From Atlantibacter subterraneus (GTDB taxonomy: Bacteria > Pseudomonadota > Gammaproteobacteria > Enterobacterales > Enterobacteriaceae), in contig NZ_VLPS01000007.1 of assembly GCF_007570865.1 (NCBI RefSeq), positions 1 to 64,000 of the forward strand: a DNA stretch of 64,000 bases, read 5' to 3'. The stretch's first letter is position 1. Each line of letters opens with the position of its first letter. Below the pieces are notes generated by a model. It saw only the letters and a program-made list of their open reading frames with translations. It was not told where the DNA came from and made no database searches. The translations under genes and the position numbers were made by a program. Of the stretch, positions 14,423-22,049 are shown in pieces.

Positions 14423-16358
14423 ATTCGAAACCACTTTTTCTGATCTGGGGCTGAAGACTCCTATCCTTGAAGCCCTTAACGATCTGGGTTACGAAAAGCC
14501 ATCTCCAATCCAGGCCGAGTGTATTCCGCACCTGCTTGGTGGCCGCGATGTTCTGGGTATGGCCCAGACAGGCAGCGGCAAAACCGCAGCGTTCTCATTA
14601 CCGCTGCTGAACAACCTTGATCCTGAATTGAAAGCGCCGCAAATCCTGGTGCTGGCCCCGACCCGCGAACTGGCGGTTCAGGTTGCTGAAGCAATGACGG
14701 ACTTCTCTAAACATATGCATGGCGTAAACGTGGTAGCCCTTTACGGTGGCCAGCGTTATGACGTGCAGCTGCGCGCCCTGCGTCAGGGCCCACAGATTGT
14801 TGTGGGTACTCCAGGTCGCCTGCTTGACCATTTAAAACGCGGTACGCTGAACCTGTCCAACCTGAGCGGTCTGGTACTGGACGAAGCGGATGAAATGCTG
14901 CGTATGGGCTTCATCGAAGACGTTGAAACCATCATGGCGCAGATCCCGGAAGGTCATCAGACCGCCCTGTTCTCCGCTACCATGCCGGAAGCGATTCGCC
15001 GCATTACCCGCCGCTTTATGAAAGAGCCGCAGGAAGTGCGCATTCAGTCCAGCGTGACCACTCGCCCGGACATCAGCCAGAGCTACTGGACTGTATACGG
15101 CATGCGTAAAAACGAAGCGCTGGTGCGTTTCCTGGAAGCGGAAGATTTTGACGCGGCGATTATTTTCGTGCGCACCAAAAACGCGACCCTGGAAGTAGCC
15201 GAAGCGCTGGAGCGCAGCGGTTACAACAGCGCCGCGCTGAACGGTGACATGAACCAGGCGCTGCGTGAGCAGACCCTGGAACGCCTGAAAGATGGTCGTC
15301 TGGACATCCTGATCGCCACCGACGTTGCGGCCCGTGGCCTGGACGTTGAGCGTATCAGCCTGGTCGTTAACTACGATATCCCGATGGATTCAGAATCCTA
15401 CGTTCACCGTATTGGCCGTACCGGTCGTGCGGGTCGTGCTGGCCGCGCGCTGCTGTTCGTTGAGAACCGCGAGCGTCGTCTGCTGCGCAACATCGAACGC
15501 ACCATGAAGCTGACCATTCCGGAAGTAGAACTGCCGAACGCAGAACTGCTGGGCAAACGCCGCCTGGAGAAATTCGCCGCTAAAGTACAGCAGCAGTTGG
15601 AAAGCAGCGATCTGGATCAGTACCGCGCTCTGCTGGCGAAAATCCAGCCGACCGCAGAAGACGAAGAGCTGGACATCGAAACCCTGGCTGCCGCGCTGCT
15701 GAAAATGGCGCAGGGCGAACGTCCGCTGATCCTGCCGCCGGATGCGCCGATGCGTCCGCGTCGTGAGTTCCGTGAGCGTGACGATCGTTTCGAGCGTCGC
15801 GGCGATCGTAACGATCGTGGTCCGCGTAGCGACCGTCCTCAGCGCGAGGGTGAAGATCGTCCGCGTCGTGAGCGTCGTGACGTTGGCGACATGGAGCTGT
15901 ATCGCATTGAAGTGGGCCGTGATGATGGCGTTGAAGTTCGTCATATCGTTGGCGCGATTGCTAACGAAGGCGACATCAGCAGCCGTTACATCGGTAACAT
16001 TAAGCTGTTTGCGTCCCACTCCACCATTGAGCTGCCGAAAGGCATGCCGGGCGAAGTTCTGCAACACTTCACCCGCACGCGTATTCTCAACAAACCGATG
16101 AATATGCAGCTGCTGGGCGACGCGCAACCGCGTCCGGATCGCGGTGGTGAACGTCGTGGCGGCGGCGCTGGTGCTGGCCGTGGCGGTTTCGGTGGCGAGC
16201 GTCGTGAAGGCGGTCGTAGCGAAGGTCGTCGTTTCAGCGGTGAACGTCGTGAAGGCGGCGCAGGCCGTAGCTTCAGCGGCGAGCGTCGTGAAGGTGGCCG
16301 TGGCCCGCGTCGTGAAGATGGCGCTGCACCGTCCCGCCGTCGTTTCGGCGACGCATAA
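14415..16358 (+). CDS. deaD: ATP-dependent RNA helicase DeaD (CsdA)
   Basis: 647 aa (K-12 629). DEAD-box core with Q motif, AQTGSGKT (I), PTRELA (Ia), LDEADEM (II), SAT (III), and [11 protein letters not shown] (VI) in the first 370 residues; then a dimerisation region, an RRM-like domain ([21 protein letters not shown]) and an Arg/Gly-rich tail with repeated GERREGG. Cold-shock helicase of 50S biogenesis and the cold degradosome. The start [13 protein letters not shown] matches the family; the longer in-frame reading crosses yrbN and is rejected. The tail is longer than in K-12. Confidence 0.97.
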
Positions 16359-16385
16359 GGTCTGAACGCCTTACGCTTTACAAAC

Positions 16386-16403
16386 TGTAAAGTTTAATAA
16401 ACA
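16386..16403 (+). promoter_or_regulatory. TyrR box upstream of mtr
   Basis: TGTAAA-N6-TAAACA, a near match to the TyrR consensus TGTAAA-N6-TTTACA, just after an inverted TTTACA/TGTAAA pair. In E. coli TyrR activates mtr with Phe or Tyr. It lies about 105 nt upstream of the mtr start and abuts the deaD terminator. Confidence 0.6.
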
Positions 16404-16433
16404 GTCCCGATCAAAATGATTGGGACTTTTTTT
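16403..16433 (+). terminator. deaD intrinsic terminator
   Basis: AGTCCCGATCA pairs with TGATTGGGACT (one mismatch-tolerant position) around AAA, followed by TTTTTTT. Confidence 0.9.
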
Positions 16434-16442
16434 ATCTGGATT

Positions 16443-16460
16443 GTACTCGTGTACTGGTAC
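16443..16460 (+). promoter_or_regulatory. TrpR operator overlapping the mtr promoter
   Basis: GTACTCGTGTACTGGTAC has Trp-operator symmetry (GTAC ends, GTACT and ACTGGTAC half-sites) and overlaps the probable -10 TACAAT at 16458-16463. Tryptophan-loaded TrpR represses mtr in E. coli through a site of this kind. Confidence 0.7.
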
Positions 16461-16507
16461 AATGACGCATCCGCTTTCCGGATCCGATCGTTAATACAGG
16501 ACATAAC

Positions 16508-17752
16508 ATGGCAACCCTCTCCACCACCAGCGTCTCGCCCTCCATTCTGGGCGGCATTGTTATTATTGCCGGCACCATCATCGGCGCAGGAATGTTCTCT
16601 CTGCCGGTCGTGATGTCAGGCGCGTGGTTTTTCTGGTCACTGGCGGCGTTAGGGGTTACCTGGTTCTGCATGCTCCATTCCGGCTTAATGATCCTCGAAG
16701 CAAACCTCAACTACGCGCCCGGTGCCAGCTTCGATACCATGACTAAAGATCTGCTCGGCAAAAACTGGACGTGGATCAACGGCCTCTCCATCGCCTTTGT
16801 ACTGTATATCCTGACCTACGCCTATATCTCGGCGAGCGGCTCGATACTGCATCACACGCTGTCGGAAATGTCGCTGTCGTTTTCTCCCCGGCTGGCGGGA
16901 CTGATCTTCGCGTTGATCGTGGCGTTTGTGGTCTGGCTTAGCACCCGTGCGGTGAGCAGGATGACGGCGATTGTGCTGGGCGCGAAGGTGATTACGTTCT
17001 TCCTGACTTTCGGCAGCCTGTTGGGCCACGTTGAGCCTGCCACGCTGTTTAACGTTGCGGAGCCTCAGCCATCCTACCTGCCGTATTTGTTGATGACGCT
17101 GCCATTCTGCCTGGCGTCATTTGGCTATCACGGCAACGTGCCGAGCCTGATGAAGTATTACGGCAAAGATCCGCGCACCATTGTGCGCTGCATTGTGTGG
17201 GGAACGCTGATTGCGCTGGCGCTGTATACCGTCTGGCTGCTGGCGACCATGGGGAATATCCCGCGTCCGGCGTTTATTGAGATTGCCCAAAAAGGCGGCA
17301 ATATTGATGTGCTGGTCCAGGCGCTGGCGGGCGTGCTCAACAGTAAGACGCTCGACCTGCTGTTAATCATCTTCTCTAACTTTGCGGTCGCCAGCTCGTT
17401 CCTCGGCGTCACCCTGGGTCTGTTTGACTACCTGGCGGATTTATTCGGCTTCGATGATTCCGCGCTGGGGCGTTTCAAAACCGTGCTGTTAACCTTTGTG
17501 CCGCCGATTGCGGGCGGCATGCTGTGGCCGAACGGATTTTTGTACGCTATCGGCTATGCCGGGCTGGCTGCGACTATCTGGGCTGCAATTGTACCTGCGC
17601 TGTTGGCCAGGGCGTCGCGTAAGCGCTTCGGCAGCCCGCTGTTTCGCGTCTGGGGCGGGACGCCGATGATTGTGCTGATCCTGGTTTTCGGCATCGGTAA
17701 TGCGCTGGTGCATCTGTTATCGACGGCGAACCTGCTGCCAGTTTATCAATAA
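16508..17752 (+). CDS. mtr: High-affinity tryptophan permease Mtr
   Basis: 414 aa, the E. coli length, ending LLPVYQ as in E. coli. Aromatic amino-acid permease (HAAAP family) with about 11 membrane helices; the N-terminal [17 protein letters not shown] is the substrate-site GxG motif of the APC fold. Proton-driven Trp (and indole) uptake. Promoter region carries TyrR- and TrpR-type sites. Monocistronic, ended by a bidirectional terminator shared with yhbW. Confidence 0.97.
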
Positions 17753-17757
17753 AAAAA

Positions 17758-17778
17758 CGCCCTCCGATGTGGAGGGCG
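17758..17778. terminator. Bidirectional terminator between mtr and yhbW
   Basis: CGCCCTCC pairs with GGAGGGCG (loop GATGT), preceded by seven A. Those give a T-run for the leftward yhbW transcript; the rightward mtr transcript has only CTCTGTT. Confidence 0.85.
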
Positions 17779-17783
17779 CTCTG

Positions 17784-18788
17784 TTACAACGATTCGCGAA
17801 CCTGCATCGCTAAATCGAAGGAGTGGAGACGGGCCTGATGATCGAAAATCTGCCCGTTAACCATGATTTCATCGGCCTCGGTTTCCCGCAGGATCGACAG
17901 CAAGCCGTGGCGCACTTTAGCCTTATCGCCCACCAGAGACATGCCCAGCGCCTGCTGGACGCCATACTGCTCCGCCGGGCTCCAGATACTCTCCATGCTT
18001 TCCACCGGCGGCGGCAGCTGTCCGGCCTCGCCGCGGCGCAGCTTCACAAACGCCTGCTGCATTGAGGTAAACAAAAACTCCGCGTCGCGATTGCTGTCGG
18101 CTGCCACGATATTGATGCACACCAGCGCGTACGGTTTTTCCAGCCGCCCGGACGGTTTGAACTGGGTACGATACAGATGCAGCGCCTGGAACAGCATATC
18201 CGGCGCGAAGTGCGAGGCAAATGCGAAGGGCAGCCCCATCTGAGCCGCCAGCTGTGCGCTATACAGGCTGGAGCCTAACAGCCACAGCGGGATTTTCGCG
18301 CCGTAGCCCGGCACCGGACGCACGGCAGGGTGCGGATCGCGCGCGTCAAACCACTCCACCAGCTCGTTCACATCGCGCGGGAAGTTATCAATATCGCCGC
18401 TCATATGGCGGCGCAGCGCCATCATGGTGCGTTGATCGCTGCCCGGCGCGCGGCCCAGCCCCAGCTCAATGCGGCCAGGATACAGCGCGTCCAGAGTGCC
18501 GAACTGTTCGGCAATCACCAGCGGAGAGTGGTTGGGCAGCATCACGCCGCCTGAGCCCAGGCGCAGTGTGGAGGTATTCGCGGCAAGATAGCCGATCAGC
18601 ACCGACGTCGCCGCGCTGGCGATGCCGGTCATATTGTGATGTTCAGCCAGCCAGTAGCGGTGATAGCCGCGCGCTTCGGCAAGTTTGGCTAAATCCAGAG
18701 AATGATGGAACGCGTCCCGGGCGCTGAGCCCTTGCGGGATCGGGGCCAGGTCAAGCAAAGAGAAAGGTACAGTTGATTGCGTGGTCAT
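17784..18788 (-). CDS. yhbW: Luciferase-like flavin monooxygenase-family protein YhbW
   Basis: 334 aa (E. coli 335), bacterial-luciferase-like TIM barrel: [45 protein letters not shown] and [13 protein letters not shown] are typical of the FMN/F420-type family. Reaction unknown; it may be a flavin-dependent oxidoreductase. Downstream of ubiUV on the same strand, separated by a 127-nt spacer almost entirely occupied by an imperfect palindrome, whose proximal arm covers the likely Shine-Dalgarno sequence GTGAG. Confidence 0.93.
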
Positions 18789-18791
18789 AGC

Positions 18792-18911
18792 AGCTCACTT
18801 TGTCACAGCACTGTTTCAGATTAAAGGTCTGCCTCCGGCGCGCATGCGCCAGAAAGCTGTACCTTTTAATACTGCATTAAAATCCGCTGATTGCTGTTAA
18901 CAAAGTGAGCT
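18792..18911. repeat. 120-nt imperfect palindrome filling the ubiV-yhbW spacer
   Basis: Outer arms AGCTCACTTTGT (18792-18803) and ACAAAGTGAGCT (18900-18911) are perfect 12-mers, extended inward by AGCA/TGCT with one bulge. A middle pair ATTAAAGGT / ACCTTTTAAT and an apical GGCGC-GCAT-GCGCC are nested inside; the right arm has about 17 extra nt. Seven T follow on the + strand. The whole element could fold as one long hairpin in either strand. It matches none of the enteric repeats (REP, ERIC) I know. Confidence 0.75.
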
Positions 18912-18915
18912 TTTT

Positions 18916-19794
18916 TTAGGCCTGCAGCTCAAGCCCCGCCAGACGACGCCAGTAACCGTTGCAGTCGCTGTTGGCTTCCAGCGCCAGCGGCGCAGCGCCT
19001 GCCTCATTGGCACGAAAGGCGTTGAGCATGTCGATGGTGTCCGTGCCCATCGGAGAAAGCCGCACTACATCTACCAGACCCTGCATAGAGGTTAACTCGT
19101 TGCCGAGATTGTAGACGTAGCCGCTCATGGTCTGGATACCGTTCAGCACAAACACCTGCTGGCCTTCCTGGGAATGAATCACCCGCCCATGTGGGTATTT
19201 GATGCAGCAGGTTTCGCATTCATCTTTAGGCCGATCCTCTGATCGCGCGGTAAAGCAGCGGGCGGAGTAGGCCAGCGGCAGATGACCGTAGCTCAGCACT
19301 TCCACCTCGAACTGCTGGCGAATGCCCAGATCTTCGCACTGGGTCAGTAAATTCACCAGCCAGTCGCGGGAGAGTTCCACGGGCATACACCAGCGCATCA
19401 TGCCCTGTTTCGCCAGGCGGCGCAGCGTGACGGCGTTATAGCAGTTGAGCGCATGGCTGGCGACAAACGGCAACCCGCGTTCCCAGGCCATATTCACGGT
19501 GCCGAAATCGCTGGCCTCAATCAGAAACTCGCCGTTTTCCACATAACGCTTCAGCTCGTTAAGCTCCGATGGTGCCTGTACCAGCGCTAAGGTGGAGATG
19601 ACGACCTGTTTGCCGCTGGCCGCGACGGTTTTCGCCATCTCCAGCCAGTCGCCCACTTTGGTATCGCGGCGCTTGCTGCACACCGACTCGCCAAGATAGA
19701 TAATATCGGCGCGGCTGTTGGCCGCTGCCTGATAAAACTGTTCCAGCGTCGCTTTCGGCCAGTAATACAGTACTGGCCCTAATGAATATTTCAT
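18916..19794 (-). CDS. ubiV: Oxygen-independent ubiquinone hydroxylation protein UbiV
   Basis: 292 aa U32-peptidase-family protein. The four [4Fe-4S] ligands of E. coli UbiV are kept: C39, C180, C193 and C197 (in DECETCCIKYPHG). With UbiU it forms a heterodimer that hydroxylates ubiquinone precursors without O2, using prephenate as oxygen donor. The ubiU stop is 10 nt upstream of its ATG, so the pair is one operon. Confidence 0.95.
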   Translation of the reverse strand: MKYSLGPVLYYWPKATLEQFYQAAANSRADIIYLGESVCSKRRDTKVGDWLEMAKTVAASGKQVVISTLALVQAPSELNELKRYVENGEFLIEASDFGTVNMAWERGLPFVASHALNCYNAVTLRRLAKQGMMRWCMPVELSRDWLVNLLTQCEDLGIRQQFEVEVLSYGHLPLAYSARCFTARSEDRPKDECETCCIKYPHGRVIHSQEGQQVFVLNGIQTMSGYVYNLGNELTSMQGLVDVVRLSPMGTDTIDMLNAFRANEAGAAPLALEANSDCNGYWRRLAGLELQA

Positions 19795-19804
19795 TGTGGT
19801 TCCT

Positions 19805-20800
19805 TTACTGCCATTTGCGGTGATACGCGCCGAGCGTGGTTTGCGTGCCTTCGGACATCGCGCCGAGGGTGTCCATCCAAGCCTGCTGCGGCTGGAACTG
19901 TTGCGGATCCGTCATGCAGCGGTCGATGGCTTGCCGCCACACTTTCGCCACCTGGCTAACGTATGCCGGGCTACGCTGGCGGCCTTCGATTTTCACCGAG
20001 GCGATATTGGCAGCCAGCAGCTCCGGCAGCAGTTCCAGGGTGTTGAGGCTGGTGGGTTCTTCAAGGGCGTGATAGCGCTGGTCGTCAACCAGATAGCGCC
20101 CTTTACACAGCGTCGGGTAGCCCGCGTTCTCCCCGTCCTGATAGCGGTCGATCAGTACGTCATTGAGGCGTGATTCCAGGCCCTGAGGCGTCTGCTGCCA
20201 GCGCACAAAACGCGCTGGTGAGCACGCGCCGACGGTGTTGGGCGATTCGCCGGTCAGGTAAGAAGAGAGATAGCAGCGGCCTTCCGCCATGATGCACAGG
20301 CTACCAAAGGCAAATACTTCCAGCGGCACCGGCGTCACGCGCGCCAACTGCTTAACCTGATGGATAGACAGCACGCGAGGCAGCACAACCCGCGCCACAT
20401 CAAAGTTGCGCTGGTAAAAACGGATCGCCTCTTCATTGGTGGCGGATGCCTGCACCGAGACGTGGCGCTCCACGTGCGGATAGCGCTCGGCGGCGTACTC
20501 CAGCATCGCGATATCCGCCAGAATCAGGGCATCGGCTCCGGATTGCGCTGCCATGTCCACTGCGCGCTCCCAGCGCTGATAGCCATCGGGATGGGCAAAG
20601 GTGTTAATCGCAATATGCAGCTTGCGGCGGTGTTGATGGACCACATTCACCGCTTCCTGAAGTTTCTTATCAGTAAAGTTGAGGCCTGCAAAATGGCGGG
20701 CGTTGGTATCGTCTTTCAGGCCGATATAAACCGCATCAGCCCCGTTTTCGATAGCCGCTTTCAGTGCCGGCAAGTTTCCGGCAGGACACAGCAACTCCAT
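19805..20800 (-). CDS. ubiU: Oxygen-independent ubiquinone hydroxylation protein UbiU
   Basis: 331 aa, the E. coli length. U32 family: starts MELLCPAGNLPALKAA and has the cysteine set LCIMAEGRCYLS, VGACSPARF and TLCKGRYL that binds a 4Fe-4S cluster. Partner of UbiV in anaerobic ubiquinone synthesis. I use the ATG at 20800, 7 nt after AGGAAAG, rather than an in-frame start 10 codons upstream. Divergent from ubiT. Confidence 0.96.
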   Translation of the reverse strand: MELLCPAGNLPALKAAIENGADAVYIGLKDDTNARHFAGLNFTDKKLQEAVNVVHQHRRKLHIAINTFAHPDGYQRWERAVDMAAQSGADALILADIAMLEYAAERYPHVERHVSVQASATNEEAIRFYQRNFDVARVVLPRVLSIHQVKQLARVTPVPLEVFAFGSLCIMAEGRCYLSSYLTGESPNTVGACSPARFVRWQQTPQGLESRLNDVLIDRYQDGENAGYPTLCKGRYLVDDQRYHALEEPTSLNTLELLPELLAANIASVKIEGRQRSPAYVSQVAKVWRQAIDRCMTDPQQFQPQQAWMDTLGAMSEGTQTTLGAYHRKWQ

Positions 20801-21027
20801 AGACTTTCCTGAAGGTGAGGGGGCGGACATAAATCGTCGCCATATTGTTAATGAACGGCGATTTTAGTTAACCTGGCGGCGACAAGATTTGATTTGAGGC
20901 AGTTAAACGCGTATTGATGAAACCAATAAAGAGGTAATCAAAACGTTTAAAATCTTGATTTACGCCGCTATGCCGCAGGAACGATATGGCACAATGATGG
21001 GTCGATAGTTATCAAGGAGTAGAGCTC

Positions 21028-21552
21028 GTGTTAGATCAACTGCGTTCGCGCCTGGTTCGTCTTGGCCCCTCACTGATGAGGACGCCCGTTAAGCTGGCGC
21101 CCTTTGCTCTGAAACGACAGGTTCTTGAGCAGGTGCTGGCCTGGCAGTTCCGTCAGGCGCTTGAAGAAGGAGAGCTTGAATTCCTTGACGGGCGCTGGTT
21201 ATGCATTGAAGTACGGGATATCGGCCTGCGATGGTTTACTTCGGTGGAAAACGACCGGCTGGTGGTCAAAGAAGATGCCCCGGCTGACGTCAGTTTCAGC
21301 GCCGATGCCAGCGATCTTTTAATGATCGCCGCACGCAAACAGGACCCGGATACGCTATTCTTCCAGCGCCGGTTGATTATTGAAGGCGATACCGAACTTG
21401 GTTTGTATGTTAAAAACCTGATGGATGCCATTGAGCTGGAGGCGATGCCGAAACCGCTGCGCATCATGCTTCTGCAACTGGCTGACTTCGTCGAAGCGGG
21501 TCTGAAAGACCAGCCGTCGACCAAAGCAACCTCAGTAGGTGAACCATGCTAA
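21028..21552 (+). CDS. ubiT: Ubiquinone biosynthesis accessory factor UbiT
   Basis: 174 aa, the E. coli length; an SCP2 (sterol-carrier) lipid-binding domain covers most of it (VSFSADASDLLMIAARKQDPDTLFF). UbiT is the anaerobic counterpart of UbiJ, holding hydrophobic quinone intermediates for UbiUV. GTG start with AAGGAG 9 nt upstream. The 227-nt region shared with divergent ubiU should carry the FNR control known in E. coli; I see isolated TTGAT/ATCAA half-sites but no full FNR box. Confidence 0.95.
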   Translation: MLDQLRSRLVRLGPSLMRTPVKLAPFALKRQVLEQVLAWQFRQALEEGELEFLDGRWLCIEVRDIGLRWFTSVENDRLVVKEDAPADVSFSADASDLLMIAARKQDPDTLFFQRRLIIEGDTELGLYVKNLMDAIELEAMPKPLRIMLLQLADFVEAGLKDQPSTKATSVGEPC

Positions 21553-22049
21553 TTCGTGTAGAAATACCCATAGATGCCCCCGGTATTGACGCGCTGCTGC
21601 GCCGGACGTTTAAAGACGGCGGCGAGGCGGATCTGATTCACGATCTGCGTGAAGACGGCATGTTGACGTTAGGGCTGGTGGCTACCGATGATGAAGGTCA
21701 GGTGGTCGGCTACGTCGCGTTCAGCCCGGTAAGCGTGCAGGGTGAAGATCTCCAGTGGGTGGGCCTTGCGCCGCTGGCGGTAGAAGAATCGCTGCGTGGC
21801 CAGGGCCTGGCACGCCAGCTGGTTTACGAAGGGCTCGACTCCCTGAATGAATTTGGCTACGCCGCCGTGGTAACGCTGGGCGATCCGGCGCTGTATGGCC
21901 GTTTCGGTTTTGAACTGGCCGCGCACTACGATTTACACTGCCGCTGGCCGGGGACGGAAGCGGCATTCCAGATCCATCCGCTGGCTCCCGATGCGATGAA
22001 GGGCGTAAGCGGTCTGGTGGAATATCACGAGCACTTCAATCGTTTCTAA
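21546..22049 (+). CDS. yhbS: GNAT-family N-acetyltransferase YhbS
   Basis: 167 aa. GNAT fold with acetyl-CoA-binding motif A around [19 protein letters not shown] (about 80-98), followed by the [18 protein letters not shown] motif of the YhbS subgroup. Substrate unknown to me. Overlaps the ubiT end by 7 nt, so the two are translationally coupled. Its own 3' end overlaps the convergent yhbQ by 14 nt. Confidence 0.93.

Follow-up and report, generated by a model that had tools for sequence, protein, structure and literature searches.

The DNA analysed here, a stretch of 64,000 nucleotides from Atlantibacter subterraneus referred to below as the window, carries ubiU, ubiV and yhbW in this order on the minus strand, with mtr on the opposite side of yhbW and convergent with it (Table 1). 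Among the matches listed, the window UbiV is closest to the proteins of Atlantibacter sp. RC6 (99% identity) and A. hermannii (97% identity). Two side features were noted near yhbW: a strong hairpin with a T-run 3' of the gene (window 17754-17782), located between the convergent yhbW and mtr, and a Spot_42-like match on the plus strand (window 16343-16434) that scores 29.5 bits against a gathering score of 80 and is probably due to chance.

The ubiV and yhbW genes are separated by a spacer of 127 nt (18789-18915). A preliminary description of this DNA had reported a 120-nt palindrome filling nearly all of the spacer and built as a nested repeat, with 12-nt perfect outer arms, one bulge and a GC apical stem. 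It was right about the extent, and both the inverted repeat (I8) and the predicted fold bear out the architecture. The outer arms, perfectly complementary over 12 nt, are 96 nt apart; past a one-base bulge they extend into ACAGCA/TGCTGT, and the apical stem is GC-rich. As had also been described, the arm on the yhbW side covers the ribosome-binding site of this gene. On the minus (coding) strand, the region 18780-18925 folds with a predicted energy of -57.2 kcal/mol (z -5.46, none of 200 shuffles being as good), compared with -48.7 kcal/mol on the plus strand (z -3.36, one of 200 shuffles being as good). We ranked the 56 window ORFs of at least 120 aa, each at its candidate starts, by complementarity between the ribosome-binding site and the upstream sequence; yhbW ranks first with -28.9 kcal/mol.

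Table 1. Genes and sequence elements of the ubiUV-yhbW locus in the window
Feature	Position	Strand	Evidence
ubiU, first gene of the upstream operon	19805..20830	-	NCBIfam quinone_UbiU equivalog NF047963, 559.4 bits against a cut-off of 440
ubiV, whose transcript would enter the element	18916..19794	-	NCBIfam quinone_UbiV equivalog NF047965, 359 bits against a cut-off of 275
5' arm of the read-through stem, AGCTCACTTTGT	18900..18911	-	Inverted repeat I8, 100% complementary to 18792-18803
Marbox-like 15-mer GCTCACTTTGTTAAC, forward orientation	18896..18910	-	Score of 6.9 bits with a matrix built from 87 published ChIP-seq sites
-10-like element CAGTAT of the predicted yhbW promoter	18869..18874	-	Such an element 35 or 36 nt from the motif start in 104 of 107 loci
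Predicted yhbW transcription start region	18858..18866	-	Deduced from the -10-like element
Structured long-type leader: apical GC hairpin and conserved ACCTTTAATCTGA	18816..18860	-	Alignment A2 of 29 long-type sequences; motif count
3' arm of the stem, containing the yhbW ribosome-binding site (ACAAAGTGAGCT)	18792..18803	-	Inverted repeat I8; same ribosome-binding site also where the 5' motif is missing
yhbW, luciferase-like monooxygenase gene, the putatively controlled gene	17784..18788	-	Pfam Bac_luciferase, 1.1e-40; NCBIfam PRK10508 equivalog, 695.6 bits against a cut-off of 540

Copy number and class of the spacer

The spacer is neither a mobile repeat nor a sense-strand terminator. It is present as a single copy in its own genome, where the remaining matches are short and have E-values of 0.29 or worse, and related sequence is found at the same locus in other Enterobacteriaceae. 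The extra segment that distinguishes the long type of the element (see below) had a match with E <0.01 in six of 25 genomes, at one place in each and adjoining yhbW. When the E. coli form was used as a 96-nt query, matches were obtained in 5374 of 5426 complete E. coli genomes, at a median of one place. The single copy rules out a mobile repeat of the MITE, REP or ERIC type; the earlier suggestion of a small palindromic (MITE-like) element is thereby refuted. The preliminary description had not recognised the sequence as REP, ERIC or another listed repeat.

A scan for terminator-like sites found none on the sense (minus) strand of the spacer, which rules out a sense terminator of ubiUV. This is in line with the preliminary description, which had placed the T-run on the plus strand only and had concluded that it forms no normal ubiUV terminator. 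In the window, the T-run arises beside the ubiV stop codon. As a putative antisense terminator on the plus strand it is not generally conserved: at least six A residues among the 10 nt before the 5' motif (coding strand) were counted in 36 of the 107 motif loci described below. No Rfam family matched above its gathering score in the window segment 16000-22000 or in three other loci (L074, L047 and L098); the one match over the L047 spacer, located on the opposite strand, reached 27.1 bits where the gathering score is 56.

Some E. coli genomes depart from the usual arrangement. Near position 4639769 of NZ_CP027390.1 and near position 2776629 of NZ_CP135719.1 the match starts only at the arm, which points to inserted sequence between ubiV and the arm. 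The best match in TUM1226 ends at query base 35, and the module looks interrupted there.

Distribution and conservation of the arms

Altogether 161 upstream regions were collected, namely the window, the best 80 of 373 relatives found, and 80 further regions. For the last group, 295 genomes were searched and 172 gave a match; among the matches listed we chose 60 regions of lower similarity and 20 others. One region was dropped for masked bases (L108) and eight as duplicates over the last 130 nt. The resulting 152 loci comprise 107 with the 5' motif, 24 with a same-strand upstream ubiV and no motif, and 21 without such a ubiV in the fetched stretch; in this last group the motif was found in none of the 21. 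Four loci with no ATG at the expected start (L147, L152, L154 and L175) were kept, all of them without the motif. A duplex test gave p <0.05 in four of the 45 no-motif loci (L145, L167, L169 and L179). In 10 genomes from other families of the order, a search at E 1e-50, run without a positive control, found no YhbW.

The element occurs in two types. In the short type of E. coli, Salmonella, Citrobacter and much of Enterobacter, the arms are ~50 nt apart, whereas the long type, found in most Klebsiella, Raoultella, Cedecea, Kosakonia, Atlantibacter and others, has an extra hairpin and a conserved stretch between them. The same arms are kept in both types. Alignment A1 includes 49 of 51 distinct short modules and alignment A2 includes 29 of 46 distinct long modules; those omitted belong to other lineages or carry further insertions.

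Several features of the yhbW leader were recorded alongside the arms. The conserved long-type leader consists of a hairpin followed by ACCTTCAATCTGATG, which reads ACCTTTAATCTGA in the window. The pattern CC[CT]T[CT]AA at 80 nt or less from the ATG was counted in 33 of 45 long loci, 14 of 45 no-motif loci and one of 62 short loci, with 1-2% in shuffles. In three Kluyvera loci (L080, L098 and L112) a further insertion of ~54 nt separates the leader from the ribosome-binding site and is flanked, by eye, by repeated TATGC-like ends; the arms of these loci are kept. Visual inspection of three other loci (L130, L131 and L132) showed a terminator-like hairpin and T-run downstream of the -10-like element, within the yhbW leader, which suggests attenuation in this lineage.

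In the 49 short-type sequences the outer stem is paired in 99.8% of cells, with 9 of 12 pairs invariant; covariation was not above shuffles, because the arms hardly vary. The preliminary description had set a single-copy sequence that gathers unpaired changes in its homologs against a conserved structure, and had pointed to covariation as a check. The spacer does occur just once in its genome, but its homologs show no build-up of unpaired changes, and the stem is kept paired yet does not covary above shuffles. When a tentative upper helix was added to the same 49 sequences, the paired share fell below that of shuffles (88.5 vs 89.5%), and an upper-stem CGGT/ACCG helix was rejected, being paired in just 61% of cells. 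Among the 29 long-type sequences no both-side changes were found in the 17 predicted pairs. Across 35 distinct arm pairs, arms matched with their own partners were paired in 348 of 385 cells against a permuted mean of 343.8, and 153 of 20,000 permutations were as good, in a comparison that ignores relatedness. As far as these alignments go, covariation neither proves nor disproves the stem.

Individual arm positions are more informative about pairing. Positions 6-8, which were left free in the search pattern, hold one base in 106, 96 and 104 of the 107 loci, respectively, and carry 0.07-0.19 bits in the marbox matrix described below; pairing accounts for their conservation, whereas MarA-type binding does not. 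At position 5, G replaces A in 14 loci and still pairs in 13 of them (nine G-U and four G-C pairs). An A-C mismatch occurs at this position of the stem in L123.

Promoter-like features of the 5' arm

A marbox matrix was built from 87 ChIP-seq sites listed in Table 1 of PMC10268841. Against this matrix the 15-mer at the 5' arm ranks 114 of 127,972 window positions, and its score corresponds to the 5th percentile of the 87 sites; judged by sequence, the marbox match is fair, not strong, and its score is low for the class. A -10-like element, [CT]ANTA[TC], was found 36 nt from the motif start in 97 of the 107 loci and 35 nt from it in seven, with no match in place in the remaining three. Provided that CAGTAT (CANTAT) is the -10, the centre of the marbox-like site falls at -41 relative to the predicted start. 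Published sites near -41 are mainly in forward orientation, and under the class II rule a forward-orientation site lies 30-42 bp upstream of the start (PMC10268841). By sequence and predicted position, the 5' arm resembles a marbox, the activator site of MarA, SoxS, Rob and RamA, in the class II position.

No consensus sigma-70 promoter was detected when the spacer was scanned. A second candidate, TTTAAT as -10 with TTGTTA as -35, was set aside in favour of CANTAT, because the latter places the marbox centre at -41 and because TTTAAT is without A at the second position; either choice of -10 would start the RNA beyond the 5' arm. A related sequence, [CT]AATACT, is present in 20 of the 45 no-motif loci against 2.5% in shuffles.

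Other distances within the spacer vary considerably. From the -10-like element to the ATG there are 35 to 155 nt across the motif loci, and from the ubiV stop codon to the motif there are 4 to 772 nt over the 107 loci (4-8 nt in 80 loci and 14-772 nt in 27). Because the spacing is rigid on the promoter side only, the 5' arm appears to be tied to the promoter by DNA geometry and the 3' arm by sequence only. The module from the motif to yhbW stays together despite the variable gap on the ubiV side, and the element therefore belongs to yhbW and not to ubiV. The preliminary description had not noticed that yhbW's own promoter probably includes the far arm.

In nine loci (L046, L048, L050, L052, L059, L090, L101, L105 and L194) the stretch between the ubiV stop and the 5' motif contains sequence that we take, by eye, to be REP- or ERIC-like, and the module is intact. 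In L127, L128, L133 and L134 the gap between ubiV and yhbW is ~880-960 nt; the stem masks in L127 and does not in L134.

Predicted accessibility of the yhbW start site

We calculated the cost of opening positions -14 to +3 of yhbW in two model RNAs: a read-through RNA beginning 40 nt before the 5' arm and a promoter RNA beginning after the -10-like element, the predicted start. Over the 107 motif loci the predicted cost averages 15.8 kcal/mol (sd 3.8) in the read-through RNA and 4.5 kcal/mol (sd 1.2) in the promoter RNA; the corresponding values for the window are 20.8 and 3.5 kcal/mol. The difference exceeds 2 kcal/mol in 98 of the 107 loci and is reversed in three (L131, L120 and L140), and masking is weak or absent in nine motif loci (L120, L124, L125, L130-L132, L134, L140 and L143). 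In these models the start site is predicted to be closed in the read-through RNA and open in the promoter RNA.

The predicted masking depends on the 5' arm. When this arm alone was shuffled in the window, the cost fell to 4.8 kcal/mol (range 3.6-9.1, 40 shuffles); a window RNA begun 5 nt into the arm gave 6.7 kcal/mol, and RNAs begun further in gave 3.9 or less. In eight loci, shuffling the 15-nt arm alone removes most of the effect on average, with single shuffles of L063 keeping up to 14.2 of 21.2, and an RNA start at least 5-8 nt into the arm likewise removes most of the masking. Taken together, the arm shuffles and the later starts mean that the predicted difference needs a start past the first few arm bases, not an exact site.

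The 3' arm is also found by itself. Relatives that have neither the 5' motif nor notable upstream complementarity (e.g. L153, L157 and L166) carry ACAAAGTGAGC before the ATG as well. Since the ribosome-binding-site sequence is kept there without the 5' motif, the 3' arm has a role of its own.

Arms and terminators between ubiV and yhbW

Terminator-like hairpins between ubiV and yhbW were detected in two of the 107 motif loci vs nine of the 24 no-motif loci with ubiV upstream (Fisher p 2.4e-6, ignoring relatedness). In the two motif loci with a terminator, L120 and L134, the arms do not mask. Among the terminator loci, L133 and L169 contain an arm-like sequence missed by the pattern, and the contrast without them stands at seven of 22. 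The scan found no terminator in 15 of the 24 no-motif loci, nor in seven of the nine weakly masked motif loci. Phylogeny confounds this contrast throughout; the pattern fits, and does not prove, two ways to keep ubiUV transcription from making YhbW.

Published regulation of yhbW and ubiUV

Luciferase-like monooxygenases use oxygen. Published work describes yhbW as answering stress regulators tied to multidrug resistance (PMC4310594). For instance, RamA binds the yhbW promoter of K. pneumoniae and activates it 6.9-fold in vitro (PMC4310594), and yhbW is among the genes lowered in a Salmonella ramA mutant (PMC3139621). The gene has also been placed in the SoxRS regulon (PMC6561319) and in the rob regulon (PMC7653855), and has been described as a multicopy suppressor of the need for rpoE. 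In the Salmonella ChIP-seq table (PMC10268841 Table 1), some rows of which carry locus numbers, no row is named yhbW. Vanillin raises the YhbW protein 77-fold and its RNA ~13-fold, and this induction of yhbW is independent of soxS (PMC6561319).

The ubiUV genes are activated by Fnr under microaerobic to anaerobic conditions (PMC10470549), so yhbW and ubiUV answer different conditions. Given that YhbW is of an oxygen-using type and belongs to the response to oxidative and drug stress, its production from an anaerobic operon would be pointless. The publications consulted, mainly from sources other than subscription journals, contained no description of the ubiV-yhbW element.

Proposed mechanism and alternative explanations

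The arms, their conservation, the rigid spacing of the -10-like element and the predicted difference in accessibility are established directly; we infer the start site, the occurrence of read-through and the effect on translation. We propose, with a probability of roughly two in three, that the palindrome is a translational insulator shielding the stress-induced monooxygenase gene yhbW from the anaerobic ubiUV operon. With its activator site and -35 region, the 5' arm would form the upstream part of a class II promoter of yhbW of the MarA/SoxS/Rob/RamA type, and the 3' arm would be the ribosome-binding site of yhbW. Polymerase running on from ubiUV would yield an RNA with both arms, and their pairing would bury the yhbW start site, with little YhbW being made. 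When stress activators fire the internal promoter, the RNA would begin between the arms, would be without the 5' arm and would be translated. A translational switch for yhbW was among the readings offered in the preliminary description; translational control is close to the evidence, but a trap for read-through RNA fits better than a ligand-type switch.

Three of the four alternatives that we weighed also give the palindrome a function. The inverted repeat might work as DNA, in the form of two opposed marbox-like sites with the second downstream of the start, an arrangement through which proteins of the MarA family could act both to activate and to block. Read as its reverse complement, GCTCACTTTGCTACA, the 3' arm does score 10.0 bits in 13 loci, above the 6.9 bits of the 5' arm, and 8.2 bits in the window. 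In many other loci, however, the 3' arm stands at 4.0 or less than the best other site on its strand; moreover, its distance from the promoter varies with the 35 to 155 nt between the -10-like element and the ATG, and loci that lack the 5' motif retain its sequence as a ribosome-binding site. We consider this explanation unlikely. Another alternative accepts the mask and has it opened by a ribosome ending at ubiV, or by a ligand, a protein or a small RNA, such that yhbW would be made from the ubiUV message under some condition. The motif begins in the reach of a terminating ribosome, 4-8 nt past the ubiV stop, in 80 of the 107 loci, but the wider gap in the other 27 argues against such coupling, with L050 among them still predicted to mask (17.2 vs 6.3 kcal/mol); nor does the absence of Rfam matches above gathering score in the segments searched (window 16000-22000, L074, L047 and L098) favour a switch of this kind, which we regard as quite unlikely. 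The stem might also be a site for RNase III or other processing, as the preliminary description had suggested, or for 3'-end stabilisation, parting the ubiUV RNA from the yhbW RNA. A long imperfect stem in the predicted read-through RNA and the negative scan for a sense-strand terminator between the genes are consistent with this role. Yet the uninterrupted stem in E. coli-type loci is only ~13 bp, which is short for RNase III, and a nuclease is required neither for the link between 5' arm and promoter nor for that between 3' arm and start site; we regard such a role as unlikely.

The last alternative denies the RNA any role and holds that the arms are conserved separately, as a marbox and as a ribosome-binding site, with a complementarity due to chance or common descent. 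It would explain why the ribosome-binding-site sequence is kept without the 5' arm in other lineages and is compatible with covariation not above shuffles. Against it stand the first rank of yhbW for complementarity among the 56 window ORFs, the strong conservation of arm positions that the marbox matrix does not read, and the pairing retained by G at arm position 5 in 13 of 14 loci. Of the four, this is the one to which we give the least credence.

If the insulator reading of the palindrome is true, RNA-seq alone would misjudge yhbW expression while ubiUV is on. A basal mask on read-through RNA would fit the larger change of the YhbW protein than of its RNA under vanillin, a suggestive agreement for which other causes are possible. 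The presence of the E. coli form in nearly all complete E. coli genomes makes the idea testable in K-12. As a tentative extension, which we think could well prove wrong, one 15-nt stretch may have been selected both as a DNA operator and as an RNA antisense to its own ribosome-binding site; operator traps of this kind could be a general, so far unrecognised means by which stress promoters downstream of unrelated operons are kept silent, evolutionarily interchangeable with a terminator, and the long-type leader could add a further control layer. The signature to look for in other operons would be an activator site whose sequence is complementary to the ribosome-binding site of the same gene.

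Comparison with known systems

In IS10/Tn10, transcripts entering from outside fold so that the transposase start is hidden, and those begun at the inner promoter do not. That system is a mobile element, however, whereas the yhbW element is single copy. Like the class II mar/sox/rob promoters, yhbW would have a forward site, marbox-like and centred at -41 as counted from the predicted start, and RamA activation of yhbW is published; it would differ from them in that its putative activator site is also complementary to its own ribosome-binding site.

In the leader of the phage T4 gene e (lysozyme), longer upstream transcripts fold and hide the ribosome-binding site, and a late promoter lies inside the region encoding the 5' strand (PMC3014915). 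The yhbW leader would be alike in both respects, with an upstream transcript that hides the ribosome-binding site and a promoter of its own within the 5'-strand region. In contrast to yhbW, gene e is a phage gene with phage late promoters and no marbox-like activator site; its repression was measured and is 100-fold (PMC3014915), whereas that of yhbW is predicted. At B. subtilis spoIIGA-sigE/sigG, a hairpin of 20+ pairs was proposed to block read-through translation and is absent in the RNA from the sigG promoter (PMC5942855). As suggested for yhbW, the read-through RNA there would be masked and the own-promoter RNA free, a mechanism likewise at the level of a proposal. The genes and sigma factors are other ones, and the available part of that report does not describe an arm made of an activator site. 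By analogy, we propose that the yhbW element works like the T4 gene e and spoIIG-sigG traps. It is unusual in that the activator site itself seems to form the 5' strand of the trap, and in being kept across many genera.
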